A DNA stretch of 64,000 nt from Arenicellales bacterium (GTDB lineage: Bacteria; Pseudomonadota; Gammaproteobacteria; BMS3Bbin11). The notes beneath the pieces are model-generated. The model was given only the letters and a program-made list of their open reading frames with translations, did not search any database and was not told the origin of the DNA. Below, in pieces: positions 10,342 through 58,531 of this stretch; within the stretch, counting starts at the first letter, position 1, and each line of letters begins with the position of its first letter. The stretch covers positions 1 through 64,000 of the forward strand of contig JARFQE010000065.1 in the NCBI GenBank assembly GCA_029287915.1, read 5' to 3'. The translations under genes were made by a program, and so were the position numbers.

Positions 10342-11916
10342 GTGAATATTTTCAAAGTACAGGTAAAAAGCTTGTTTTTTTATCTGCTGATTGCGGTTTT
10401 ATGTGGCCAATCAGATCTTGTTGCCGCAGAGAAGTTAACTATCCATCGCGATGATTGGTATCTGTCTCAACCTGGGGAGCATGCAACAATACAGATGTCA
10501 GGCCATGAGTCTGAACAGGACGCTATCGCCTATATCGAGGATTTGAACTTAACGGGTGATATTGGCTACTATCAAACTCAGTTTAAAAGTCATCCCTGGT
10601 ATGCCGTAACCTTTGGCTCTTTCAGTTCGCTTGATGAAGCTCGAAGCCAGCTTCGACTGATGCCTGAAAATCTACAAAACCATTCGCCCTGGCCTCGAAC
10701 ATTTACAGCCATCAAAGTACTTATCGATGCACACGAACAGGCTGTCAGGATCACTGAAAAGCACACGGTGGCTAGGGACGGCAGTGGAGCAGGTCCACGG
10801 CCTGATAACAAAGGCACAGCAGTAAACTGGGAACAGGGACAGGCTGCCTACGATGACGGAGATTTTGTTAGCGCATTTAAAATCTGGCAAGCTGAGGCAA
10901 AAAAGGGTGATGAGTTATCCCAGTTTAATCTGGGGGTTATGTATAGTCGCGGGCAAGGCACGGAAAAAAATGCTAGTCGTGCGCTCGAATGGTATATGCG
11001 TTCAGCCAAGCAAGGCTATGCCCCGGCTCAGTTCAATCTTGGCACAGTTTTTCTGCAGGGTATTTTCACTGCTAAAGATGAACAAAAGGCCGCAGCCTGG
11101 TGGAAAATGGCGGCTGAGCAGGGATTTGTGCAGGCACAGTTCAATCTTGCAGGCCTCTATTGCCAGGGTATTGGCGTCCCGCGTGATATAGGGAAATGTA
11201 AATTCTGGTATGGCCGTGCCGCTTCTAATGGTGATACGAATGCACGTAAACTGCTCGATCGCATCAAACAAAGCGAACTAGTGCCGAAAGCGGAGCAGGA
11301 AACAGAGAATACAGCTGCATCAGTCATTGCAACGACTACATCAGAAAAAAAGCAGTCTGCTGGAAAAAAAACCGAGCACGCAGCTGTAAAAGTCAAATCT
11401 ACCGAGAATCAGCTACTGCTTGCGCAAGCAGAAAAATCATTAAGCGAACAAAAGCGTAGTGAAAACGGGGGAAATAAAACTGCGGTCCGGCGGATTAGCG
11501 CGCAGCAACAGGTACAGTTAAGCAAGGCCCAGGCGGCATTTACGCGAAACAATTATATGAGATCCCATGATCTCTGGTTGCCACTGGCCGAGAGCGGAAT
11601 TGCTGAAGCGCAGTATAGCCTGGGTTTTCTCTATCAGAGTGGCTGGGGGCCAGAACGAGATTTGCTGCAAGCCGTAGAATGGTACACCCGCGCTGCAGAG
11701 CAAAACGAGACACGTGCCCAGTTCAATCTTGGCGTGCTGCTGATCACTGGTGAGGATGAGGTCGAGAAAGATACTGAGGCAGGAATTCTCTGGCTTACCC
11801 GGTCTGCTGAAGGCAACAACATCAGGGCGAAGGAATTACTGGTAGATATCTACGGTAACGGCAAATACGGCATAGAGAAATCAATAAAGAAAGCAGAATA
11901 CTGGAAGTCGCGCTGA
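10342..11916 (+). CDS. Exported SPOR-domain and Sel1-repeat protein
   Basis: This 524-residue protein has a signal peptide (about 1-29), an SPOR-like peptidoglycan-binding domain (about 45-130) and Sel1-type TPR repeats in two blocks. The first block (about 165-310) has repeats of the QFNLGxxYxxGxG pattern, the second lies at about 395-520. A charged Lys/Glu/Ala linker joins them. This combination suggests a periplasmic adaptor near septal or stressed cell wall. The start is GTG; a GGGAG ribosome-binding site sits somewhat far upstream. Homologous Sel1 repeats are generic protein-interaction modules, so the partner is unknown. Confidence 0.85.
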   Translation: MNIFKVQVKSLFFYLLIAVLCGQSDLVAAEKLTIHRDDWYLSQPGEHATIQMSGHESEQDAIAYIEDLNLTGDIGYYQTQFKSHPWYAVTFGSFSSLDEARSQLRLMPENLQNHSPWPRTFTAIKVLIDAHEQAVRITEKHTVARDGSGAGPRPDNKGTAVNWEQGQAAYDDGDFVSAFKIWQAEAKKGDELSQFNLGVMYSRGQGTEKNASRALEWYMRSAKQGYAPAQFNLGTVFLQGIFTAKDEQKAAAWWKMAAEQGFVQAQFNLAGLYCQGIGVPRDIGKCKFWYGRAASNGDTNARKLLDRIKQSELVPKAEQETENTAASVIATTTSEKKQSAGKKTEHAAVKVKSTENQLLLAQAEKSLSEQKRSENGGNKTAVRRISAQQQVQLSKAQAAFTRNNYMRSHDLWLPLAESGIAEAQYSLGFLYQSGWGPERDLLQAVEWYTRAAEQNETRAQFNLGVLLITGEDEVEKDTEAGILWLTRSAEGNNIRAKELLVDIYGNGKYGIEKSIKKAEYWKSR

Positions 11917-44818: not shown

Positions 44819-45856
44819 GTGGCAATAACAATAGCCATTGATGCACATGGTGGTGATACAGGGGTGTCGGTCACTGTCCCTGCTGCACTTTCAGCACTAG
44901 CCAGCAAGCCGGACCTGTCCATTATTCTGGTAGGGCAGCAAGACGTGCTGGATTCTGAACTGGACAGACACAGCAACAATTATTCAGACAGGCTCGAAGT
45001 TCAACATGCCTCACAGATCGTAGGCATGGAAGAATCCCCATCGACAGCATTACGAGGAAAAAAAGATTCCTCCATGCGCATCGCTATTAATCTGGTAAAG
45101 GATGGCCGTGCCAATGCCTGTGTCAGTGCCGGCAATACTGGGGCACTGATGGCGACTGCTCGCTTTGTACTGAAGACATTGTCTGGCATTAAACGCCCTG
45201 CCATTATCACTGCCATCCCAACCATGCATGGCCATGTCCACTTGCTTGATCTTGGTGCCAATGTAGACAGTTCAGCAGAGGTGCTGCAGCAGTTTGGCAT
45301 CATGGGCTCAATTCTTGTTCAGTCTACAGAAAAGATAACTGCCCCTAAAGTTGGCTTGTTAAACATCGGTCATGAAGACGTTAAAGGCAATGAAACTGTT
45401 AAAGCAGCAGGCGAATTACTAAAAAAAAGTCCCATAAACTATGTCGGCTTTGTAGAGGGTGATGATATTTTTACCTCCGACCTCGACGTCATTGCCTGTG
45501 ACGGCTTTGTTGGTAATGTTTCATTGAAAACTATGGAAGGCCTGACACAAATGATTTCTTCAATATTGAAAGAAGAGTTTGGTAAAAACATCTTTACAAA
45601 AATATCAGGCCTGCTTGCAATACCTGTAATCAAAGCCTTGCGCTCACGCTTTGATAATCGTCGTTACAATGGTGCTACCTTGCTTGGGCTCGGTGGGATA
45701 GTCATTAAGAGCCATGGTAGTGCTGATATCTATGCATATACACAGGCAATTCATGAAGCGTACCGGGAGGTCCAATACCAGGTCATTGACGAGATCGAAA
45801 AGGTATTAGCAAAAACGGATTTCAGCAATACAGAAAGAGAACAGGATATTGAGTAA
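44819..45856 (+). CDS. plsX: Phosphate acyltransferase PlsX
   Basis: This 345-residue enzyme turns acyl-ACP into acyl-phosphate for phospholipid synthesis. Opens with I-A-I-D-A-H-G-G-D and carries the S-A-G-N-T-G-A-L-M segment and [10 protein letters not shown], typical of PlsX. The start is GTG. The 3' end overlaps fabH by eight bases, so the two are translationally coupled. Confidence 0.97.
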
Positions 45857-46832
45857 TACTGGCAAGACTTATTCCAGGATAATTGGCACAGGTAGTTATC
45901 TACCGGAGAAAGTCCTGACCAATGCAGATCTCGAGAACATGGTTGAAACCAGTGACGAATGGATTGTTTCTCGAACTGGCATCAGCGAACGCCACATTGC
46001 TGCAGAAGGTGAAACAACCTGTGATATGGCAGTACAGGCGGCTCGTCTTGCTATGGAAAGTGCAGACATCAGCCATTCAGAAATAGACCTTATTATCGTC
46101 GCGACTACGACGCCTGACCTGATTTTTCCTTCAACCGCCTGTCTTTTGCAGGAGCGACTTGGTATTCATGGTTGCCCGGCATTTGATGTACAGGCAGTTT
46201 GTACAGGATTTATTTATGCTTTGACGGTAGCCGATAATTTTATTCGCAGCGGAACTTCTAAACGTGCACTGGTCGTTGGTTCCGAAACCCTTTCACGTAT
46301 TGTTGACTGGACGGATAGAGGCACCTGTATATTATTTGGAGATGGTGCCGGAGCCGTGGTTGTTGAAGCATCCAATGAAACAGGAATTATTTCCAGCCAC
46401 ATTCACTCTGACGGGCAGTTCAAGAATCTGCTGCAGGTGCCAACAGGTGTATCAAATAATTATCAGGATGTCATAGAAGGAAATGCCTATATCGAAATGA
46501 AAGGTAATGAAGTCTTTCGAATGGCAGTGAATACCCTTGGACGTATTGTAGATGAAACACTGAGTCATAATAATCTGAAAAAATCTGATATTGACTGGCT
46601 GGTTCCTCATCAGGCAAATATACGTATTATCAATGCCACCGCGAAGAAACTTGGCATGTCGCTGGATAATGTCGTTGTTACAGTAGACAGGCACGGCAAT
46701 ACTTCAGCGGCTTCAGTTCCCCTGGCTTTAGATGAGGCAGTACGCGATGGGCGAATCAAAGCTGGAGAAACAGTTATGCTTGAAGCCTTTGGTGGTGGAT
46801 TCACATGGGGCGCCGTGCTGTTGAAGATGTGA
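45849..46832 (+). CDS. fabH: 3-oxoacyl-ACP synthase III FabH
   Basis: This 327-residue condensing enzyme starts fatty-acid synthesis by joining acetyl-CoA with malonyl-ACP. The catalytic triad is C118 (V-C-T-G-F), H254 (V-P-H-Q-A-N) and N284 (H-G-N-T-S-A). The start is TTG, preceded by AGGA, and overlaps plsX. Confidence 0.97.
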
Positions 46833-46866: not shown

Positions 46867-47799
46867 ATGAGCACAGCATTTATATTTCCGGGCCAGGGTT
46901 CGCAATCTATCGGTATGATGAATTCACTGGCTGAATCAAACACAGTCATCCATGATACCTTTTCCGAGGCATCAGACATTCTCGGCTATGACTTATGGGC
47001 ACTGGTGACAGAAGGGCCTGTAGAGAAATTGAACTCTACTGAAATTACCCAACCAGCAATGCTGACTGCTGGTGTGGCCAGCTGGCGTGCCTGGCAGGCA
47101 GCCGGTGGAGCTAATCCTGCGATCATGGCTGGCCACAGTCTGGGTGAATATACTGCACTGGTCTGTGCCGGTGCGCTGAATTTTTCCGATGCAGTAGCAC
47201 TGGTCTCTGATCGAGCTCATTTTATGCAACAAGCTGTAGCTGAAGGTGAGGGTGCCATGGCGGCAGTACTCGGGCTCGATGACGAGAGTGTCAGGACGCT
47301 CTGTCAGGAAAATGCTGGCGGCGAAGTACTGCAAGCGGTAAATTACAATGCTCCCGGGCAGGTAGTGGTAGCGGGAAGTGCCGCTGCAGTAAGTCGTCTT
47401 GTGCAGAATGCCAAAGTAGCTGGTGCCAAACGTGCGCTCGTCTTACCCGTCAGTGTTCCGTCACATTGTGCATTGATGCGGCCCGCCTCAGAACAGATGT
47501 CAGCAAGGCTCAATGATGTGTCAATCAGCCAGTGCGCGATTCCTGTCATTCATAATGTTAACGTGCAGGCAGCAGCTGATGAAAACGAAATCCGTCAGCT
47601 GCTTGCCCGACAGATCTCTGAACCGGTACGCTGGGTTGAAACTATCAATAATATGCATGATCATGGGGTTGGTCTGCTGATTGAATGCGGGCCCGGCAAA
47701 GTCCTCTGTGGTCTAAGCAAACGCATTAATAGAGATATCAGCTGTATCCCATTGATAAATAAAGATTCTGTTGTTGCAGCACTGGAGGCGGAAAAGTGA
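46867..47799 (+). CDS. fabD: Malonyl-CoA:ACP transacylase FabD
   Basis: This 310-residue enzyme moves malonyl from CoA to ACP. S91 in G-H-S-L-G-E-Y is the acyl acceptor and H200 (V-P-S-H) the base; Q11 region (F-P-G-Q-G-S-Q) is conserved. Its stop overlaps the fabG start. The malonyl-CoA synthetase encoded at 55.7-57.2 kb would make its substrate from free malonate. Confidence 0.97.
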   Translation: MSTAFIFPGQGSQSIGMMNSLAESNTVIHDTFSEASDILGYDLWALVTEGPVEKLNSTEITQPAMLTAGVASWRAWQAAGGANPAIMAGHSLGEYTALVCAGALNFSDAVALVSDRAHFMQQAVAEGEGAMAAVLGLDDESVRTLCQENAGGEVLQAVNYNAPGQVVVAGSAAAVSRLVQNAKVAGAKRALVLPVSVPSHCALMRPASEQMSARLNDVSISQCAIPVIHNVNVQAAADENEIRQLLARQISEPVRWVETINNMHDHGVGLLIECGPGKVLCGLSKRINRDISCIPLINKDSVVAALEAEK

Positions 47800-48640: not shown

Positions 48641-48877
48641 ATGAGTAGTGTTGAAGAACGCGTCAAGAAAATTGTAGCTGAACAACTCAGTACCAGCGAA
48701 GACCAGATTTCCAATACGTCTTCTTTTGTCGATGATCTGGGCGCAGATTCACTCGATACAGTTGAACTTGTTATGGCTCTGGAAGAAGAATTTGACCTCG
48801 AGATTCCGGATGATGAAGCCGAGAAGATCACCACAGTTCAGCAGGCTATCGATCACATTAATGCTGCTACCAGCTAG
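48641..48877 (+). CDS. acpP: Acyl carrier protein
   Basis: This 78-residue acidic helical protein carries S37 in the D-S-L motif, the attachment site for 4'-phosphopantetheine. It carries all acyl intermediates of the fab enzymes encoded around it. GAGG precedes the ATG. A strong terminator follows. Confidence 0.98.
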
Positions 48878-48978: not shown

Positions 48979-50220
48979 GTGAGTAAGCGTCGTGTTGTTA
49001 TTACTGGTATAGGAATTCATTCTCCAGCAGGCCTGGGACTGGATGCCAACTGGCAGAATATTACTGCCGGTAAAAGTGGTATCAGCACTATAAAAAGTTT
49101 TGATACAACAGGTATGCCCGCGACGATTGCTGGACAGATTGTTGATTTTGAGCCTGAGAACTGGATCGACAGTAAATCCTGCCGCAAAATGGATCGCTTC
49201 ATACAGCTTGGTATGGCTGCTGGTCTTGACGCGCTGGCGGATTCCGGGTTTGAGGTCACTGATGAAAATGCACATCGTGTAGGCGTCCATATTGGTGCAG
49301 GTATCGGTGGCCTCGCAACCATCGAAAAACAGACACGGGCGTTATTTGAGCGCGGACCACGACGTATTTCGCCCTTTTACATCCCCAGCAGCATCATCAA
49401 TATGATTTCTGGTAACCTGTCTATTGCGCTGGGTGCAAAAGGCCCCAATCTAGCTATTGTAACTGCCTGCGCGACAGGGACCCACTCGATTGGCGATGCT
49501 GCCAGGTTAATTGAATATGGCGATGCTGATGTCATGTTCGCTGGAGGCTCAGAAAGCTCTATTACCCCGACAGGACTGGCCGGGTTTGGCAACGCGAAGA
49601 CACTAAGCACCCGAAATGATGATCCGCAGGCAGCTTCACGCCCCTGGGATAAAGGCCGCGATGGATTTGTTATGGGTGAAGGCTCAGCAGTAATGGTGCT
49701 GGAGGAACTCGAACACGCACGAAATCGTGGTGCACAAATCTATGCTGAGCTGGCAGGTTTTGGACTCAGTGGCGATGCCTATCACATGACCAGCCCCATA
49801 CCGGGTGGCACAGGTGCGGCACTTTGTATGGAAAATGCCATGCGCAATGCCTGCGTAAATCCACAGGATATTGATTACATCAATGCTCATGGTACGTCTA
49901 CGCTTCTTGGTGACATTGCAGAAACCCAGGCGGTGAAACTGGCCATGGGTGATTATGCAAGCTCGATTGCAGTCAGTTCTACAAAGTCCATGACGGGCCA
50001 TCTATTGGGCGCGGCAGGTGCAATTGAGGCTGTTTATGCCACCCTAGCAATAAAACACCAGGTTGCTCCGCCGACGATTAATCTTGAAGATCCTGATCCG
50101 GAATGTGATCTGGATTATGTACCTGGCACTGCAAGAGATATGAAGATTGATGTTGCGATGTCGAATTCTTTTGGATTTGGCGGCACCAATGGCACCCTGG
50201 TCATGAAACGAATGTCCTGA
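48979..50220 (+). CDS. fabF: 3-oxoacyl-ACP synthase II FabF
   Basis: This 413-residue elongating condensing enzyme has catalytic C164 (V-T-A-C-A-T-G), and the two His in N-A-H-G-T-S-T and S-M-T-G-H-L-L-G-A-A-G. The start is GTG 48 bases after the acpP terminator. The next gene, pabB, begins 18 bases after the stop. Confidence 0.97.
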   Translation: MSKRRVVITGIGIHSPAGLGLDANWQNITAGKSGISTIKSFDTTGMPATIAGQIVDFEPENWIDSKSCRKMDRFIQLGMAAGLDALADSGFEVTDENAHRVGVHIGAGIGGLATIEKQTRALFERGPRRISPFYIPSSIINMISGNLSIALGAKGPNLAIVTACATGTHSIGDAARLIEYGDADVMFAGGSESSITPTGLAGFGNAKTLSTRNDDPQAASRPWDKGRDGFVMGEGSAVMVLEELEHARNRGAQIYAELAGFGLSGDAYHMTSPIPGGTGAALCMENAMRNACVNPQDIDYINAHGTSTLLGDIAETQAVKLAMGDYASSIAVSSTKSMTGHLLGAAGAIEAVYATLAIKHQVAPPTINLEDPDPECDLDYVPGTARDMKIDVAMSNSFGFGGTNGTLVMKRMS

Positions 50221-50238: not shown

Positions 50239-51627
50239 TTGTCAACACCCTGCCTGGTACGACAACTCGCGCACTGCCCCGATCTTTTTGATCTGGCAGA
50301 AGCGCATCCTGAAAGATACCCATTCCTGCTTGAGAACACCGGCGAGCCTTCGTCACTGGGCCGCTTTGATATCCTGTTCGCTTTTCCCGGAACACAACTG
50401 ACCTGTCTGGCAAACGGCAGTCTGCTACTGGATGGTGAGAACCTGGGTGAAATACCGTTTCTCGATAAGCTTGATTCAATTTATCGACAGCATGAAAGTA
50501 AGACAAACCATGCCAATGAACATAAACTGCCTTTCTATGGCGGCTGGTTCCTGTACCTGGGCTACGAACTGGTAGAAGAAATAGAACCTGTTCTCAGTAC
50601 CTTCCTGCACCAGCCGGAACTGCCCCGCGCAATGATGGTAGAAATCCCTGCCGGCATAGTCCGTAACAGGGAAACTGGGCAAGACTATGTTTTTGCCAGT
50701 GGTGATGGTGCTGCACAACGACTTGATGAAATTATCAAGGATGTCATTCTGCTAACCGAAGAAGCACCCACCGGTAAGGCTGAAAACAACCCGTTTTTTT
50801 GCGATATATGGGAAGAAGAGGGCGATCAATATCTGCAAAGCATCAAGCGGATAAAAGAGTATGTGCGTGCTGGTGATGTATTTCAGGTCAATCTGTCGCG
50901 TCGTTGGCAGGCTGAATGTAACCATGCCGTGTCAGTGACGGATGCCTGGCGCAGGTTACGGCAATCAAATCCGGCACCCTTTGCCGCCTGGGCAAGACTC
51001 GATCATAAAACTACCATTCTATCCTCATCACCAGAACGCCTGCTGCAACAGCGACAGGGCAGAGTTAGTACACGACCCATTGCAGGCACCTATCCGCGCA
51101 GTAATGACCAGAGAATCGACAGCCAGCTATCTGCTGAGCTGTTGCTGCATCCTAAAGAACGTGCCGAACATATCATGCTGGTCGATCTTGAAAGAAATGA
51201 TCTTGGCCGGATTTGCCAGCCGGGATCTATTCAGGTTGATGATCTTATGGTGCTGGAGAGCTATGCCCATGTGCATCACATAGTTTCAGATATTAGTGGT
51301 GTGCTAAAGGAGGGTGTGTTACCTGGTGAGATAATTCGCGCTGTCTTCCCTGGCGGTACAATTACCGGTTGCCCGAAGGTTCGCTGCATGGAGATTATTG
51401 CCGAGCTGGAGACTGAAGCACGTGATGCCTATACTGGCTCTGTTGGCTATCTATGTCACAATGGCGATATGGATCTGAATATTCTAATAAGGACGATCAC
51501 ACACTACAATAACCGTTACAGTTTTCGTGCCGGGGCTGGAATTGTGGCTGATTCAGATCCGCTACGGGAGCTGGATGAAACACGTTCCAAGGCGAGAGGC
51601 CTGACCAGTATATTTTCTTCGGTGTAG
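50239..51627 (+). CDS. pabB: Aminodeoxychorismate synthase component I PabB
   Basis: This 462-residue chorismate-utilising enzyme works in folate synthesis. The G-G-W-F-L-Y-L-G-Y-E region (about 101-110) is typical of PabB, and the chorismate-binding domain spans about 195-460. The key active-site motif reads R-P280-I-A282-G-T: Ala stands where E. coli PabB has the Lys of P-I-K-G-T, and this resembles anthranilate synthase. The neighbouring pabC supports PabB rather than TrpE. Start TTG, uncertain. It lies 18 bases after fabF. Confidence 0.9.
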   Translation: MSTPCLVRQLAHCPDLFDLAEAHPERYPFLLENTGEPSSLGRFDILFAFPGTQLTCLANGSLLLDGENLGEIPFLDKLDSIYRQHESKTNHANEHKLPFYGGWFLYLGYELVEEIEPVLSTFLHQPELPRAMMVEIPAGIVRNRETGQDYVFASGDGAAQRLDEIIKDVILLTEEAPTGKAENNPFFCDIWEEEGDQYLQSIKRIKEYVRAGDVFQVNLSRRWQAECNHAVSVTDAWRRLRQSNPAPFAAWARLDHKTTILSSSPERLLQQRQGRVSTRPIAGTYPRSNDQRIDSQLSAELLLHPKERAEHIMLVDLERNDLGRICQPGSIQVDDLMVLESYAHVHHIVSDISGVLKEGVLPGEIIRAVFPGGTITGCPKVRCMEIIAELETEARDAYTGSVGYLCHNGDMDLNILIRTITHYNNRYSFRAGAGIVADSDPLRELDETRSKARGLTSIFSSV

Positions 51628-51852
51628 TGCCCGCGGCGGGTCAAGCGGATGATATAAACCAACGTTAATAACATATAAGATTTAGACACCCCATTCATAG
51701 ACTATCGCAGAAGAATCGTTTAACCTTCCTGCGAAACAAAATGGAATAATAACGAATAAAGATCTCCGTCCTGTTAATTATCCCCCTGAATGGAAGCTAC
51801 CAAGGTCGGATATCACAAGCTTGCAGTTAAGCAAAAAACCTGGAGGAAAAAA

Positions 51853-52860
51853 ATGAAACTGATACAAAAGACACTTACCGCTGTAGCTGTTGCCGCTATG
51901 CTGGCCGTCCCGTTAGCGAATGCCCACGCCGCTGACATAAAACTTAAGGCATCGCACCAGTGGCCAGGCGGCAAAGGAGACATTCGAGACGAGATGGTGC
52001 AGATGATTGCCCGTGATATGAATGAGTCAGGCCTTGGCGTCAACATTAGAGTCTATCCCGGAAAGTCATTGTTCAAACCAAAGGAGCAGTGGGGTGCGAT
52101 GACCAAGGGCAAGCTGGATATTACTGCTTTTCCACTGGCCTATGCAGGGGGTAGACACCCGGAGTTCAACCTGACACTAATGCCGGGTATGGTAAAAAAT
52201 CACGACCATGCTCAGCGTCTGAACAAGTCACCATTCATGCAACACATCAAGAAGATTATGGATGATGCAGGGGTTATGGTACTGGCCGATACCTGGCTGG
52301 CTGGCGGTTTCGTATCAAAAAAAGAGTGTATTCTGGAACCTGATGATGTGAAAGGCATGAAATTCCGTGCTGCCGGTAAAGCCTTCAACCAGATGCTGAA
52401 TGCAGCTGGTGCTTCTATAGCATCAATGCCTTCCTCTGAAATTTACTCAGGCCTGCAGACAGGCGTAATCGATGGTGCCAATACGTCCTCTTCATCACTG
52501 GTTTCTTATCGAATCTATGAACAGGTTAGTTGCCTGACAGCACCGGGCAAGAACGCGCTGTGGGTAATGTATGAGCCTATACTAATGGCCAAGAAAAGTT
52601 TTGCAAAACTAAACCCGGAACAGCAGAAGGCGTTGTTGAAGGCGGCTGAAAAAGCAGAACAGTTCGCACACCAGGCCTCTATCGAAGCAGACCAGAAACT
52701 GGTCGATGCCTACAAAAAAGCCGGTGTGAAAGTGGTTGAGATGACTGCTGATCAGGCTGCTATGTGGCGCAAGATAGCAGATACTTCCAGCTATAAAGAC
52801 TTTAGTGATAGTGTAAAAGGCGGTAAGGAACTGCTGGACATGGCACTTAGCGTAGAGTAA
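51853..52860 (+). CDS. dctP: TRAP transporter substrate-binding protein DctP
   Basis: This 335-residue periplasmic solute-binding protein has a signal peptide (about 1-27) and the DctP fold. The conserved Arg in the M-K-F-R-A-A-G-K region (about 165-175) binds the carboxylate of the ligand in this family. The ATG at 51853 has GGAGG six bases upstream. With dctQM and matB on the same strand, a malonate-type dicarboxylate is the likely ligand; that is inference. Confidence 0.95.
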   Translation: MKLIQKTLTAVAVAAMLAVPLANAHAADIKLKASHQWPGGKGDIRDEMVQMIARDMNESGLGVNIRVYPGKSLFKPKEQWGAMTKGKLDITAFPLAYAGGRHPEFNLTLMPGMVKNHDHAQRLNKSPFMQHIKKIMDDAGVMVLADTWLAGGFVSKKECILEPDDVKGMKFRAAGKAFNQMLNAAGASIASMPSSEIYSGLQTGVIDGANTSSSSLVSYRIYEQVSCLTAPGKNALWVMYEPILMAKKSFAKLNPEQQKALLKAAEKAEQFAHQASIEADQKLVDAYKKAGVKVVEMTADQAAMWRKIADTSSYKDFSDSVKGGKELLDMALSVE

Positions 52861-52875
52861 GTGGCAAAATTGATT

Positions 52876-52954
52876 GCCTGGGTTGTGCGCAATGATGCTC
52901 GCAATGTATGTTTATTGCGGGCAGTAAATTGGATTTAGAAAACTCAACCCAGGC
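52876..52954 (+). repeat. Long inverted repeat between dctP and dctQ
   Basis: GCCTGGGTTG (52876-52885) and CAACCCAGGC (52945-52954) are a perfect 10-bp inverted repeat. Inside, CGCAAT (52888-52893) pairs with ATTGCG (52914-52919). No T run follows. It could protect the dctP message or reduce read-through to dctQM, giving more binding protein than membrane protein. Confidence 0.8.
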
Positions 52955-53006
52955 TGATTAATATTCTTCACACACTGTTTTTTCTGTGCCTGAGAAGTAG
53001 CCTATA

Positions 53007-53531
53007 ATGGATACATTTATTCGATTCACCGCCGGGCTCTCACGATTCCTTGGTATCGTTGCGGCCATTCTACTTGTTGTCGCTGTAATTATTATCTGTC
53101 AGATGGTGATAACGCGCTACGCATTAAATCAATCCACACACTGGCAGACTGAATTTGTTACATATACCCTGATGGCCGCCACCTTTCTGGGTGCACCTTA
53201 TGTGCTACTTACGCGTGGCCATGTCAATGTAGAGCTTATACCGCTGGCAGTGAAGCCCAGAATCCGTTTCCTGTTGGCGCTGCTGGCCTATAGTGGCTCA
53301 GCTATCCTTTGTGTACTGCTGGCCTACTATAGTTTTCTGTTCTGGCACGAGGCCTGGGTGGAGGACTGGAGTTCCGATACTATATGGGGGCCCAAACTGT
53401 GGAAAGTCTACCTGTCCATGCCTGTTGGCTTTATCACCATCTCTCTGCAGTACCTGGCAGATTTGCTCTGTTTGATCACTGGAAGGGAACCGCCGTTTGG
53501 CATTAGTGACATTAACGCGGAGGCATCCTGA
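53007..53531 (+). CDS. dctQ: TRAP transporter small permease DctQ
   Basis: This 174-residue membrane protein has four helices (about 15-38, 52-72, 92-115, 135-158), the standard small TRAP subunit that assembles with DctM. Its stop overlaps the dctM start by one base, so the two are translationally coupled. Confidence 0.94.
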   Translation: MDTFIRFTAGLSRFLGIVAAILLVVAVIIICQMVITRYALNQSTHWQTEFVTYTLMAATFLGAPYVLLTRGHVNVELIPLAVKPRIRFLLALLAYSGSAILCVLLAYYSFLFWHEAWVEDWSSDTIWGPKLWKVYLSMPVGFITISLQYLADLLCLITGREPPFGISDINAEAS

Positions 53532-54847
53532 TGGACCCACTGATTCTTGGTCTGCTGGCCGCTGTTGTTCTTGTTATGCTGCTGCTGAGCGGTATGCCAG
53601 TAGCATTCGCTCTGGGTTTCACTGCAGTTCTGTTCCTTGTTATCGAAGACGGTGTGGGTGCTTTTGATGTAGTGGCAGATACACTATTTTCATCGCTCGA
53701 TGAATTCGCTCTGCTGTCGATCCCGATGTTTCTGCTGATGGGTTCGGCGATTGCTGCATCGCGTGCAGGCGCAGATCTATACGAAGCACTTGATCGATGG
53801 TTATACCGAGTACCCGGCGGCTTGCTTATATCCAATATTGGTGCCTGTGGTGTGTTTGCCGCATTGACTGGGTCGTCACCAGCTACCTGCGCAGCAATTG
53901 GCAAGATGGGGATCCCGGAAATGCGCCAGCGCGGTTATCCGGCAAGCCTGGCCACGGGAGCTATTGCCGCTGGTGGGACACTGGGCATACTGATCCCACC
54001 GTCGATAACTATGATTGTCTACGGTATTGCCACCGAGACCTCGATAGGGCGTCTGTTCATCGCCGGCATTCTGCCGGGCGTCATGCTGATGCTGTTGTTT
54101 ATGGCCTGGTCGCTATTTTATGCCTATAGAAAAGGTTATCACTTCACCGAGCCTGGCAAGCGCTTCTCGTTGCGAGAAAAGCTGATAGTCCTGCCCAGGA
54201 TCCTGCCATTTCTTGCGTTAATTGTACTCGTGCTCTGGGCCCTGTACGGTGGTGTCGCAACACCATCTGAGGCATCTGGCGTTGGCGCAATGATCAGTAT
54301 CCTGCTGGTGGTCATTATTTATCACGTCTGGCAGCCAGTAAAATTATGGGAGATCGTACGTGGTGCCACGCGAGAATCGGTAATGCTGATGATGATCATC
54401 GGTATGGCAGGCCTGTTCAGTTACATGATGTCGAGTCTGTATATCACGCAGGGAATTGCCGAGTGGATCGCAGGTATGGAAGTCAATAAATGGCAGTTGC
54501 TGTTCTATGTCAACCTGTTCCTGCTGGTAGCCGGTTTTTTTCTGCCGCCGGTAGCGGTCATATTGATGACCTCCCCAACCATCGTGCCAATTATTACCCA
54601 GGCTGGCTTTGACCCGATATGGTTCGGCGTAGTGCTTACTCTAAACATGGAAATTGGACTTATAACACCACCAGTTGGCCTTAATCTCTATGTCATCAAC
54701 GGTATCGTCAAGGACGTAGATCTTAAGACCGTTCTATGGGGAGCATTGCCCTTTATGCTCTGTCTGGTGCTCGGTATTGTGCTGCTGGCGATATTTCCTG
54801 CCATTGCCACCTGGCTGCCTGATTACCTGATGAAATCAGTTGGCTGA
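53531..54847 (+). CDS. dctM: TRAP transporter large permease DctM
   Basis: This 438-residue membrane protein of about 12 helices forms the sodium-driven transport path. Conserved segments include G-M-P-V-A-F-A-L-G, G-G-T-L-G-I-L-I-P-P-S and the late I-T-P-P-V-G-L-N-L-Y. Coupled to dctQ. Followed 45 bases later by the TauE-like gene. Confidence 0.96.
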   Translation: MDPLILGLLAAVVLVMLLLSGMPVAFALGFTAVLFLVIEDGVGAFDVVADTLFSSLDEFALLSIPMFLLMGSAIAASRAGADLYEALDRWLYRVPGGLLISNIGACGVFAALTGSSPATCAAIGKMGIPEMRQRGYPASLATGAIAAGGTLGILIPPSITMIVYGIATETSIGRLFIAGILPGVMLMLLFMAWSLFYAYRKGYHFTEPGKRFSLREKLIVLPRILPFLALIVLVLWALYGGVATPSEASGVGAMISILLVVIIYHVWQPVKLWEIVRGATRESVMLMMIIGMAGLFSYMMSSLYITQGIAEWIAGMEVNKWQLLFYVNLFLLVAGFFLPPVAVILMTSPTIVPIITQAGFDPIWFGVVLTLNMEIGLITPPVGLNLYVINGIVKDVDLKTVLWGALPFMLCLVLGIVLLAIFPAIATWLPDYLMKSVG

Positions 54848-54892
54848 AGTGACTGATATCTGCTGTAAGAACTGCTATCGGTTAATACAGTG

Positions 54893-55681
54893 ATGGATTT
54901 GACAACACTGCTGATATCGGGTGCGATTGCCGGTACGCTGGCAGGGTTGCTGGGGATTGGTGGCGGCATCGTGATTGTTCCCATAGTTACGTTGTTGTTT
55001 GAAAGTCAGGGTCTGCAAGAAGGAATGGCAATCAAGATGGCCCTTGGCACATCACTTGCGACCATTATTGTCACTGCCATCAGCAGCATCTACACTCATC
55101 ATCGCAAGCGGGCTGTTGACTGGAATATATTTACCATGATGGCGCCGGGTATTCTCGCTGGTTCACTGCTAGGAGCCTGGTTCGCCGACCTGATACCGGG
55201 AAAAATTCTCTATTTCGCATTCATTATTTTTCTATTTGCCGTCTCGCTGCAAATGGCATTCAGCCGAGTTTCGGCACACCGTGGTCTACCCGGTAGACTG
55301 GCGATAAATGGCATATCGACAGGCTTCGGAGTGGTATCGGCTCTGATGGGAGTCGGTGGTGGATCTTTAAACGTACCCTTCCTCAGCTACTGTGGAATTC
55401 CTATCAAACGGGCAATTGCCACTGCTGCGGCGATTGGCCTGCCAATCGCCGTCAGCGCCACCATCGGCTACATTGTTGGTGGCCTGAATGAAGAAAATCT
55501 ACCTGCCGGCAGTATAGGCTATGTGAATCTGCCGGTATTTGGCGGCGTAGTCGCAGCCAGCCTGATATTTGCGCCCCTCGGCGCTACGCTTGCTCACAAG
55601 TTGCCGGATTTGCTACTAAGGCGCTTTTTTGCTGTTTTCCTTTTTGTACTGGCATGTAAAATGACCTTCAACCTATTATGA
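54893..55681 (+). CDS. TauE/SafE-family permease
   Basis: This 262-residue membrane protein of eight or so helices has two G-x-x-G-G-G-S/I-type loops, G-I-G-G-G-I-V (about 21-27) and G-V-G-G-G-S-L-N-V-P (about 150-160), the TauE/SafE signature. Members move sulfite, sulfoacetate or other organic anions. I chose the ATG at 54893; a GTG at 54890 is directly before it. The position between the TRAP genes and matB suggests an anion such as malonate or an exported by-product; unproven. Confidence 0.88.
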   Translation: MDLTTLLISGAIAGTLAGLLGIGGGIVIVPIVTLLFESQGLQEGMAIKMALGTSLATIIVTAISSIYTHHRKRAVDWNIFTMMAPGILAGSLLGAWFADLIPGKILYFAFIIFLFAVSLQMAFSRVSAHRGLPGRLAINGISTGFGVVSALMGVGGGSLNVPFLSYCGIPIKRAIATAAAIGLPIAVSATIGYIVGGLNEENLPAGSIGYVNLPVFGGVVAASLIFAPLGATLAHKLPDLLLRRFFAVFLFVLACKMTFNLL

Positions 55682-55697
55682 AAGTCAGTATATTCAA

Positions 55698-57215
55698 ATG
55701 AGTAGCGCTAACCTTTTTTCCCTGTTCAGTGATAACTTTCCAGCCCAGGCAGATGCAGTTTTTCTGGACGGAATTGATGGCCGGCAACTACGCTACGGAG
55801 AGCTGAATCAACGCACCGGGCAGATGCTCAGCCTGATGAAGAAGCTGTCAATAAAGAAGGGCGATCGCGTCGTTGTTCAGGTTGAAAAGTCCATTGAGGC
55901 TGTGCTGCTATACCTGGGCTGCCTGCGTGCAGGTGTGATCTATATCCCGCTGAATACCGCCTATACCTCGAATGAGGTAAATTTCTTCCTCGGAGACGCA
56001 TCACCACAGCTATTTGTTTGCATGCCGAACAGGCTCGATGAACTGAAAAGTGTGGCACAGCGGCAGGGTGTGCCTGAACTCTTGACACTGGGTGCTGCAG
56101 GTGATGGCGAATTGATGGCAGCTGTGTCGTCAATGCCTGAGTGTGAGGACATCGCTAACATTGCAACAGACGACCTCGCAGCCATCCTTTACACCTCCGG
56201 CACCACCGGACGCTCGAAGGGTGCCATGCTTAGCCATGGCAATCTTGCTGCCAATGCAAGGGTACTATTTGCTTACTGGCACTGGCAAAACAACGATGTG
56301 CTGCTGCATGCACTGCCGATCTATCATGTTCATGGCCTGTTTGTAGCCTTGCACTGTGCCCTGCTGGGCGCTTCACGAGTCATATTCATGCCACGATTCG
56401 AAGTAAGTACTGTATTGCAGAAATTGCCTGAATCTACTGTGATGATGGGGGTGCCAACCTTTTACACCCGTTTGTTAGATGATGCAGGTTTCAACCGAAG
56501 CATCTGCAGTAATATGCGTCTTTTCATCTCTGGTTCTGCGCCACTGCTGGCGGAAACCCATCGTGATTTCGAAGCTCGCACAGGACACCGCATTCTGGAG
56601 CGTTATGGGATGACGGAAACTGGCATGATTACATCCAATCCCTACGATGGAGAGCGTATCGCCGGTACTGTCGGTTATCCCTTACCCGGCATCAGCGCCC
56701 GAGTCGCCGATAATGATGGCAGGGAATTGCCGCGCGGCGAGTCCGGTGTGCTTGAAATTGCAGGACCAAACGTGTTTCAGGGGTACTGGCAGATGCCGGA
56801 TAAAACAGCTGAAGAGTTCCGCGCTGATGGCTGGTTCATCACTGGTGATATCGCGGTGATGGACGATGATGGACGCGTAACCATCGTCGGCCGTGCAAAG
56901 GACCTGATTATTTCAGGTGGTTTCAACGTCTATCCGAAGGAGGTCGAGTCCGAAATAGACGCACTGCCAGGTGTAAAAGAATCGGCAGTGATTGGTGTGC
57001 CACATCCTGACTTCGGAGAAGGGGTGACTGCAATTGTGGTAGCGGATGATAGCACCGAAATCAACGAGCAAATCATCTTTGATGCATTACGCGATCGACT
57101 TGCACGTTTCAAGCAACCGAAGCAGATTTTTATTGTCGATGAATTACCGCGAAATACTATGGGCAAGGTGCAAAAAAACATTCTGCGTAAGAGTTACCGG
57201 GATATTTTCAAATGA
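55698..57215 (+). CDS. matB: Malonyl-CoA synthetase MatB
   Basis: This 505-residue AMP-forming acyl-CoA synthetase resembles rhizobial MatB closely over its length. The P-loop is Y165-T-S-G-T-T-G-R-S-K-G175, the adenine motif is E301-R-Y-G-M-T-E307, and the catalytic lysine is K490 in G-K-V-Q-K. It would join malonate to CoA. In rhizobia matB is paired with a decarboxylase (matA) and a TRAP or MatC carrier; here a TRAP system precedes it but no decarboxylase is visible, so the malonyl-CoA may go to FabD. The stop overlaps the next start (ATGA). Confidence 0.93.
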   Translation: MSSANLFSLFSDNFPAQADAVFLDGIDGRQLRYGELNQRTGQMLSLMKKLSIKKGDRVVVQVEKSIEAVLLYLGCLRAGVIYIPLNTAYTSNEVNFFLGDASPQLFVCMPNRLDELKSVAQRQGVPELLTLGAAGDGELMAAVSSMPECEDIANIATDDLAAILYTSGTTGRSKGAMLSHGNLAANARVLFAYWHWQNNDVLLHALPIYHVHGLFVALHCALLGASRVIFMPRFEVSTVLQKLPESTVMMGVPTFYTRLLDDAGFNRSICSNMRLFISGSAPLLAETHRDFEARTGHRILERYGMTETGMITSNPYDGERIAGTVGYPLPGISARVADNDGRELPRGESGVLEIAGPNVFQGYWQMPDKTAEEFRADGWFITGDIAVMDDDGRVTIVGRAKDLIISGGFNVYPKEVESEIDALPGVKESAVIGVPHPDFGEGVTAIVVADDSTEINEQIIFDALRDRLARFKQPKQIFIVDELPRNTMGKVQKNILRKSYRDIFK

Positions 57216-57652
57216 ACAGTGCAATGGCCACGCTTGAGGAAAAGATTCACCAGACCATTCCACTTAGCCTTGCGATGGGCTACAAGATTGTAGAACTCGA
57301 TGGCCTGCATATTATCGTCGAGGCACCACTGCAGCCGAATATAAATATCCACGGCACCGGATTCGCCGGCAGCATCTATTCTGTTGGTGTATTAACTGCA
57401 TGGGCACTCGTCTATCATGTCATTATCGGGGCGGGTCTTGTTGCTGATCTTGTCATTTCTCGGGCAGCTATTGAGTACAGTGCATCTGTCCATGGCACTA
57501 TTCGCTGTGACTGCCGCCTGGATATGGATCAGGTACAGAGATTTGTCGATGAGCTCGCTGTCAGGCACCATGCACGTATTGAAGCTGCAGTTAACATCGG
57601 TGACAGGCCTGACGCGGAGTTGTTGCTCAGCCTGCATGCGAGTCTACGATGA
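57212..57652 (+). CDS. Hotdog thioesterase of the YiiD C-terminal type
   Basis: This 146-residue protein fits the hotdog-fold YiiD_C thioesterase group. The start region M-x-x-L-E-x-K-I-H-x-x-I-P-L-x-x-x-M-G-Y and the N-x-H-G-T-x-F-A-G-S-I-Y-S segment (about 45-60) are typical. It begins inside the matB stop (ATGA), so MatB and thioesterase are translated together. An acyl-CoA or malonyl-CoA hydrolase that recycles CoA or limits MatB product is one possibility. Confidence 0.85.
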   Translation: MNSAMATLEEKIHQTIPLSLAMGYKIVELDGLHIIVEAPLQPNINIHGTGFAGSIYSVGVLTAWALVYHVIIGAGLVADLVISRAAIEYSASVHGTIRCDCRLDMDQVQRFVDELAVRHHARIEAAVNIGDRPDAELLLSLHASLR

Positions 57653-57673: not shown

Positions 57674-58531
57674 ATGTTAAAAGCTGAACAGACGATGACC
57701 CTGGTGAATGGCGAGGTCTCGTCGTCAATCGACGTGACTGATCGCGGACTACAGTTCGGCGATGGGGTATTTGAAACAATAAGAATAAACAGAGGAAGGC
57801 TGGTATGGTGGCAGCAACATATGAATCGACTGCTGGAGGGATGCCGTTGCCTGCATTTTACCAATCTCCCTAATGTTGATGTGCTGCTGAAAGAAGCTGT
57901 TCAATTATCGGAAAACTGCATGGAAGGAGCGCTTAAGATAATTATTACCCGTGGATTTTCAAACTGTGGTTATACGATTCCACGTGAAATATCGCCGAAC
58001 AGAGTTCTATTGATAAGGCCCGGAGTGAGGAATTCAGCTCAGGCAAGACAGGGTATTAGCATTGGAGTCTGTCAGCAGAGAATTAACAGTGCTACAAATC
58101 TATCAGGCATCAAGCATCTAAATCGACTTGAACAGGTTCTTGCCCGTATGGAATGTGCAACTGAGGGCTGGGACGAAGGCCTGATGCTCAATCAGAGGGA
58201 TAAAGTAATAGAAGGCAGCATGAGTAATCTTTTCGTGTGGCGGCATGATCATTTATTTACTCCAGCACTTGATAATGCAGGTGTTGAGGGAATTACCCGT
58301 GGGATAATCATCAAGCTGGCAGAGAAGTGTGGAATAGCTGTGGAGCAGGGTGAACTTGATGTCCTGGATTTGCCAAATGTCGATGAGCTTTTTGTCTGTA
58401 ATAGCCTGATAGGTATATGGCCAGTATCACAGATTGAGACAGCGAAATCTGGGCAGCTGAACTTCGAAATAGGAGACAAGACCCGCTTTTTGCAACAGCA
58501 ACTGGAGGAGGCTATGTGCTGCGCAGATTGA
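57674..58531 (+). CDS. pabC: 4-amino-4-deoxychorismate lyase PabC
   Basis: This 285-residue PLP fold-type IV enzyme releases p-aminobenzoate for folate synthesis. PLP lysine is K147 (G-I-K-H-L-N-R); G-D-G-V-F-E-T near residue 29 and E-G-S-M-S-N-L-F are conserved. The ATG at 57695 (M8) would match E. coli PabC better. pabB lies 6 kb upstream, separated by the TRAP-matB genes. Overlaps mltG by 16 bases. Confidence 0.93.
   Translation: MLKAEQTMTLVNGEVSSSIDVTDRGLQFGDGVFETIRINRGRLVWWQQHMNRLLEGCRCLHFTNLPNVDVLLKEAVQLSENCMEGALKIIITRGFSNCGYTIPREISPNRVLLIRPGVRNSAQARQGISIGVCQQRINSATNLSGIKHLNRLEQVLARMECATEGWDEGLMLNQRDKVIEGSMSNLFVWRHDHLFTPALDNAGVEGITRGIIIKLAEKCGIAVEQGELDVLDLPNVDELFVCNSLIGIWPVSQIETAKSGQLNFEIGDKTRFLQQQLEEAMCCAD

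Follow-up and report, generated by a model that had tools for sequence, protein, structure and literature searches.

The window analyzed here is a stretch of 64,000 nucleotides from an Arenicellales bacterium (assembly GCA_029287915.1, contig JARFQE010000065.1, positions 1 to 64,000). It contains a fatty acid biosynthesis (fab) cluster with the gene order plsX-fabH-fabD-fabG-acpP-fabF-pabB-(dctP-dctQ-dctM-tauE-matB-hotdog)-pabC-mltG-tmk-holB. The six genes in parentheses form a predicted module for the uptake and activation of malonate, inserted between pabB and pabC. Judging from sequence comparisons, we propose with a probability of about one half that this module supplies both the elongation unit and the primer for fatty acid synthesis. 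Family-library searches covered pabB, pabC and the six module genes; the fab genes, mltG, tmk and holB were named by reading their open reading frames (ORFs). All cluster genes for which coordinates are given below are encoded on the forward strand.

The insertion is bordered on the left by pabB (50239..51627; NF006563, 572.3 bits, cut-off 514) and on the right by pabC (57674..58531; TIGR03461, 263.8 bits, cut-off 176.85). An earlier interpretation of the same DNA (the sequence-only reading) had placed a TRAP transporter, a TauE/SafE permease, MatB and a thioesterase between these genes, and all of them are where it put them. The TRAP set is complete: the solute-binding protein DctP (51853..52860; PF03480, NF037995), the small permease DctQ (53007..53531; PF04290) and the large permease DctM (53531..54847; PF06808, TIGR00786) all score above the family cut-offs. 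They are followed by a TauE/SafE-family permease (54890..55681; PF01925), by matB (55698..57215) and by the hotdog gene (57212..57652).

Against the malonyl-CoA synthase model NF005702 (cut-off 558), MatB reaches 806.7 bits, and its top match in the PDB is the malonyl-CoA synthetase 4fuq (E 2e-184, residues 4-505). Its family membership is strong, and the family, the structural alignment and the tree described below unambiguously predict a malonyl-CoA synthetase. The nearest structures to DctP, by sequence and by fold, are 4mco and 4mev; the ligand of 4mco is presumably malonate. DctP is 77-79% identical to the DctP of operons that also code for malonyl-CoA decarboxylase (MCD) (G005, G022 and locus L028), and it is likely a solute-binding protein for malonate. 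The TauE-family permease accompanies MatB in MCD-bearing operons as well and is perhaps a second carrier. Malonate, already favored by the sequence-only reading, is the likely substrate because sister operons with the same gene set hold MCD. That the module handles another acid, such as methylmalonate or a related dicarboxylate, is scarcely credible. The one hint is the HxHGLF motif of MatB, which has a V in the window at a position where 60 of 115 MatB rows have a T and which we take to affect specificity. This residue is uninformative, as the MCD-bearing sister operons L001, L119, L120 and L170 have the same V. The NF005702 score is far above the cut-off.

The hotdog protein, previously labeled a thioesterase, has 146 amino acids and a single Pfam domain, PF09500 (YiiD_C), without a GNAT domain. 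The catalytic loop of the Mad proteins is built around Asn45, with N43, H47, T49 and F51 (PMC8666670). All five residues are found in the module protein. N43, N45, H47, F51 and S54 are invariant in 45 homologues, T49 occurs in at least 90%, and all of these residues are kept in an eight-row alignment that includes E. coli YiiD. The nearest solved folds are MadB, that is, proven Mad proteins. Based on Pfam, catalytic loop and fold, the protein is predicted to be a MadB-family malonyl-ACP decarboxylase (ACP, acyl carrier protein), and the thioesterase label was set aside for the loop and the fold. Characterized Mad proteins convert malonyl-ACP to acetyl-ACP and decarboxylate malonyl-CoA weakly, with a Km above 5 mM (PMC8666670). 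A hotdog protein that acts as a malonyl-CoA/ACP thioesterase, guarding the cell against excess malonyl thioesters from MatB, is very unlikely, even though thioesterases share the hotdog fold and several database records name relatives of this protein thioesterase domain proteins. Membership in the Mad family, a point missing from the sequence-only reading, ties the module to fatty acid synthesis more directly than its closeness to fabD. In the genus of the window's genome (G000), the hotdog gene is found where the module gene set is and nowhere else (four of eight genomes, counting G007 from another genus of the same family).

Some further occurrences of the hotdog protein may be recorded here. 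Close relatives exist in public assemblies (P0001-P0005, 77-96% identity), and a more distant one (P0029, 54%) is from Candidatus Thiodiazotropha, a genus of sulfur-oxidizing symbionts. A hotdog gene of the Mad family lies directly 3' of an MCD gene at L171:2012-3225 (G094:C164), a contig that lacks matB; this is a second kind of link between Mad proteins and malonate. A 403-amino-acid open frame had suggested a fusion of the two in G094, which was rejected, as MCD and hotdog lie side by side in different frames. In the searched literature, no paper linking Mad to MatB was among the matches listed, nor was a paper found that joins malonate, sulfur oxidation and malonyl-CoA synthetase.

The history of the module can be read from its sister operons. 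G005, a genome of the same genus, has the same gene set elsewhere, in the order gntR-dctP-dctQ-dctM-MCD-tauE-matB-hotdog (L120). This operon (L120:1723-7456, G005:C45) lies about 3 kb from genes for the RuBisCO large subunit, CsoS2 and CsoSCA, which are alpha-carboxysome genes. MCD and hotdog are also part of related sets in G022 (L119), in G331 (L170; its contig starts in dctQ, and no tauE was found) and in Chromatiaceae Ww536 (L001; its contig also starts in dctQ). The ORF of about 460 codons is MCD by Pfam in L001, L119, L120 and L028 (PF05292, E up to 6.1e-88); in L170 it was recognized by BLAST only (51%). The modules of the window and of G001, another genome of the genus, have neither MCD nor a gntR gene, and dctM is directly followed by tauE (with a 42-bp gap in the window).

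The sequence-only reading saw no MCD in the window, and none was found in the rest of the G000 assembly (95.7% complete). A protein query detected MCD in three of 10 genomes (G005, G022 and G056, the genome of Ww536) and not in G000-G004, G006 or G007. The genome-wide absence rests on this query; the PF05292 profile search was uninformative, as no control matched. A search elsewhere in the genome for a malonate decarboxylase of the other, biotin-independent type (Mdc), as had been suggested, gave the same answer: MdcA (PF16957) was found in none of 56 genomes including G000, with a positive E. coli control. A search for relatives of the GntR protein from G005 (E up to 1e-5) found them in G005 and G056 and not in G000, G001, G003 or G006 (two of six). 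Of the features of a matAB-type catabolic operon, MCD was found neither beside matB nor elsewhere in G000, and the GntR search at this threshold was negative for G000. As to the nearby decarboxylase that would have made the module catabolic, MCD is absent; a decarboxylase of the MadB type is present, which in relatives makes a primer for fatty acid synthesis (PMC8666670).

A MatB tree was computed from 48 rows chosen from 115. The window, G001 and a contig binned in G193 form a clade (support 99/91), with Ww536 as its next neighbor (100/99). These nest in a clade with G331, G022 and G005 (99/97), within which two inner forks are weak (94/62 and 92/50). Apart from the three MCD-less members, this clade has four rows, and each of them carries both MCD and hotdog. 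Because the MCD-less MatB nests among MCD carriers, the loss of MCD appears to be derived; most simply, it took place in the lineage whose module is in the fab cluster.

The sister operons, with their MCD and GntR genes, make it very likely that the ancestral role was catabolic. The module might still be catabolic in disguise, with the hotdog protein or an unrecognized enzyme doing the job of MCD for central metabolism and the fab location being merely convenient. Mad proteins do decarboxylate malonyl-CoA weakly, and MatB sets without MCD occur elsewhere. However, the Km of the tested Mad proteins for malonyl-CoA is above 5 mM, and acetyl-ACP is a substrate of fatty acid synthesis and of GlmU, not a route to acetyl-CoA (PMC8666670). 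Neither MCD (in G000, G001 and G006) nor MdcA (in the 56 genomes) was found, and it is the MCD-less lineage that has its module among fab genes. We consider disguised catabolism somewhat improbable.

The proposed route of malonate into fatty acid synthesis would proceed as follows. Malonate would be imported by DctPQM, perhaps together with the TauE-family permease, and MatB, given its strong family membership, would convert it to malonyl-CoA. The malonyl-CoA:ACP transacylase FabD from the same cluster (46867..47799; named from its ORF, syntenic in G001, 78%) would load it onto the acyl carrier protein (acpP, 48641..48877; ORF, 97% in G001); the chemistry of this step is established, and the flux is presumed. 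The MadB-type protein, judging from its family, catalytic residues and fold, would decarboxylate part of the malonyl-ACP to acetyl-ACP. The elongation condensing enzyme FabF (48979..50220; ORF, 85% in G001) would then condense acetyl-ACP with more malonyl-ACP, so that malonate would serve both elongation and a priming that is independent of FabH. Condensation of acetyl-ACP with malonyl-ACP has been shown for other FabB/FabF enzymes (PMC8666670). For Xanthomonas, one report describes MadB-dependent initiation beside FabH (PMC12093956).

That malonate feeds fatty acid synthesis, as the sequence-only reading suggested, is the best-supported interpretation, and no MCD was found that conventional matAB catabolism would use. 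The accompanying idea that acetyl-CoA carboxylase is bypassed stands in part only. G000 has two PF01039 matches, one of AccA and one of AccD type, and replacement of acetyl-CoA carboxylase was rejected on this ground. The cluster also contains fabH, which encodes the standard priming condensing enzyme (45849..46832; named from its ORF; its homologue in the corresponding G001 cluster is 87% identical). Given these genes, the module would supplement acetyl-CoA carboxylase and FabH and would not replace them. RuBisCO is present in all five genus genomes examined, so that a likely autotroph would gain an organic supplement in malonate.

We tentatively go one step further. After the loss of MCD, the module may have become a malonate-only entrance to type II fatty acid synthesis, with the primer made via MadB and the extender via MatB and FabD. 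When malonate is available, lipid synthesis could then be free of acetyl-CoA, FabH and acetyl-CoA carboxylase. If this is true, a bacterium with RuBisCO could build membrane lipids from scavenged malonate, sparing acetyl-CoA as well as the ATP- and bicarbonate-consuming step of acetyl-CoA carboxylase. MadB-type enzymes would gain a concrete physiological partner in MatB, which would explain a recurrent and unremarked gene pair. The module would also be a natural counterpart of a strain design that is used to raise malonyl-CoA for polyketides.

The insertion is not confined to one assembly. G000 consists of 139 contigs and is 95.7% complete; the other two carriers, G001 (99% complete) and G006 (75%), belong to the same genus. 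As the sequence-only reading had called for, the gene order between pabB and pabC was compared across relatives. The whole module order is repeated in G001 (L118). In G006 (L124), matB-hotdog-pabC lies at a contig end; the left half, any MCD gene included, is beyond the contig. An assembly error was therefore rejected. In G002, G003, G004 and G005 of the same genus, and in G007, pabB adjoins pabC. The insertion is thus present in three of the seven genomes of the genus, with that of the window included. Between G000 and G001, the six module genes show nonsynonymous divergence (dN) of 0.07-0.30 at synonymous divergence (dS) near or past saturation, as do their neighbors. This combination indicates purifying selection on the module. 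One more copy was encountered, on a contig assigned to a genome from a different family (L198, G193:C8, 4803 bp). It matches the G001 module at 98.6% DNA identity and has the same MCD-less order. Misbinning of a contig from a G001-like strain is the likely cause, with transfer as a possibility, and the copy was not counted as an independent case.

Several observations weigh against the proposal that the module feeds and primes fatty acid synthesis. Its presence at this site is patchy. In a tree of 11 proteins, with 39% of the columns filled for G006 and 30% for G004, the three carriers do not form a clade (approximately unbiased test, p 3.7e-6), and G003, which is without the insertion, is sister to G001. 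Gain, loss or exchange must thus have occurred more than once at this site. With AccA- and AccD-type genes and a fabH ORF present, the route is not needed. As G000 is 95.7% and G006 75% complete, MCD could sit in an assembly gap. The four MCD-bearing sisters also carry the hotdog gene, so that it did not arise to replace MCD; it predates the loss of MCD and may have another job in the sister operons. The hotdog protein is the fastest diverging of the module proteins (60% identity between G000 and G001), and its structural model, with a pLDDT of 90, falls below 50 in the catalytic loop (residues 46-50). A sigma-70 scan listed 8 sites, versus 10.8 in shuffles, and none of them is in the pabB-dctP gap.

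Furthermore, MatB without MCD is common. In a class sample of 369 genomes, 35 have MatB (E up to 1e-150). MCD was found near matB in 16 of these, elsewhere in the genome in seven, and not at all in 12, which include G000, G001 and G193 (thresholds E 0.01 and 1e-10; some of the MatB genomes are incomplete). TRAP genes lie beside matB in 14 genomes, and MCD is there in 10; those without it are G000, G001, G193 and G265. MCD-less TRAP-TauE-GntR-MatB sets that have no hotdog neighbor occur in G265, G374, G375 and G376. By locus, such sets were recorded at L045, L057, L076 and L224, with no MCD match in their genomes.

The location among fab genes is another matter. For the 33 other MatB genomes of the class, the fetched matB neighborhoods (several on short contigs) have no match to pabB, pabC, plsX, fabH, fabD, acpP, fabF, mltG, tmk or holB; two have generic fabG-like matches (30-33%). 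The neighborhoods of the best 80 MatB loci contain a pabC-like class IV aminotransferase in six cases (19-20%), a fabF-like gene in one (37%) and fabG-like genes in 14. These were taken as generic paralogs, because the fab-pab gene order appears at none of these loci. MatB without MCD is not remarkable by itself; the module is unusual in joining this lack with a place among fab genes and a MadB partner.

Patchiness and the frequency of MCD-less MatB would also suit ordinary malonate scavenging. The module would then have come to lie among the fab genes accidentally and been retained for good expression, and its hotdog protein would have no special role in priming. The third-position GC content points in the same direction: it is 0.50-0.55 in the six module genes versus 0.38-0.48 in plsX-pabB and pabC-pilZ, as expected of an insert. 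Against this, G000 and G001 have the order in common, with neighboring proteins about 70% identical and dN low. Malonyl-CoA would largely end in fatty acid synthesis here too, so that scavenging differs from the proposed route mainly over the hotdog protein. We regard it as distinctly unlikely.

The spacing of the genes bears on their expression. There are two overlaps within the module (dctQ/dctM, 1 bp; matB/hotdog, 4 bp), and the remaining distances are 225 bp (pabB-dctP), 146 bp (dctP-dctQ), 42 bp (dctM-tauE), 16 bp (tauE-matB) and 21 bp (hotdog-pabC). The earlier mention of several overlaps was thus slightly generous. The pabB-dctP gap (51628..51852) has blocks in common with G001 in a two-sequence alignment, which makes a promoter of its own possible for the module. 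Just 5' of the dctP ribosome-binding site, a short inverted repeat, noticed by eye (51817-51832), is common to G001; it could be a regulator site or chance. The hotdog stop overlaps pabC in G001 and G006, so that the module and the genes downstream of it may share a transcript; in G005, pabC overlaps pabB. Far from the module, at 10342-11916 of the window, an ORF of 524 amino acids matches MerG in part (E 2.7e-29; 102.7 bits, far under the cut-off of 350).

Several known systems resemble parts of the module. TRAP-type catabolic operons for malonate include matPQM of S. meliloti, with GtrA, and stand beside the rhizobial matABC operons. The module shares a TRAP transporter and MatB with the TRAP type, and its sister operons add MCD and a GntR regulator. 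It differs in having neither MCD nor a GntR gene, in its place inside the fab cluster and in its MadB-type partner. MadA (YiiD) of E. coli and MadB of S. oneidensis and P. putida have the same PF09500 hotdog domain, catalytic loop and fold; unlike them, the module protein is encoded directly after matB, with which its gene overlaps. An engineered E. coli delta-bioH strain is close in metabolic logic: malonate together with MatBC rescues E. coli with a biotin-less acetyl-CoA carboxylase and raises fatty acids (PMC12303837). There, as proposed here, MatB supplies fatty acid synthesis with malonyl-CoA made from imported malonate. That strain is a laboratory construct with MatC and is not reported to include a Mad partner, whereas the module is natural and its genome has acetyl-CoA carboxylase genes. 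A last parallel is ACSF3, the mitochondrial malonyl-CoA synthetase, which is reported to serve mitochondrial fatty acid synthesis (PMC8770830). There, too, malonate is activated directly for fatty acid synthesis; this takes place in a eukaryotic organelle without a known dedicated importer operon, whereas the module brings importer genes of its own.

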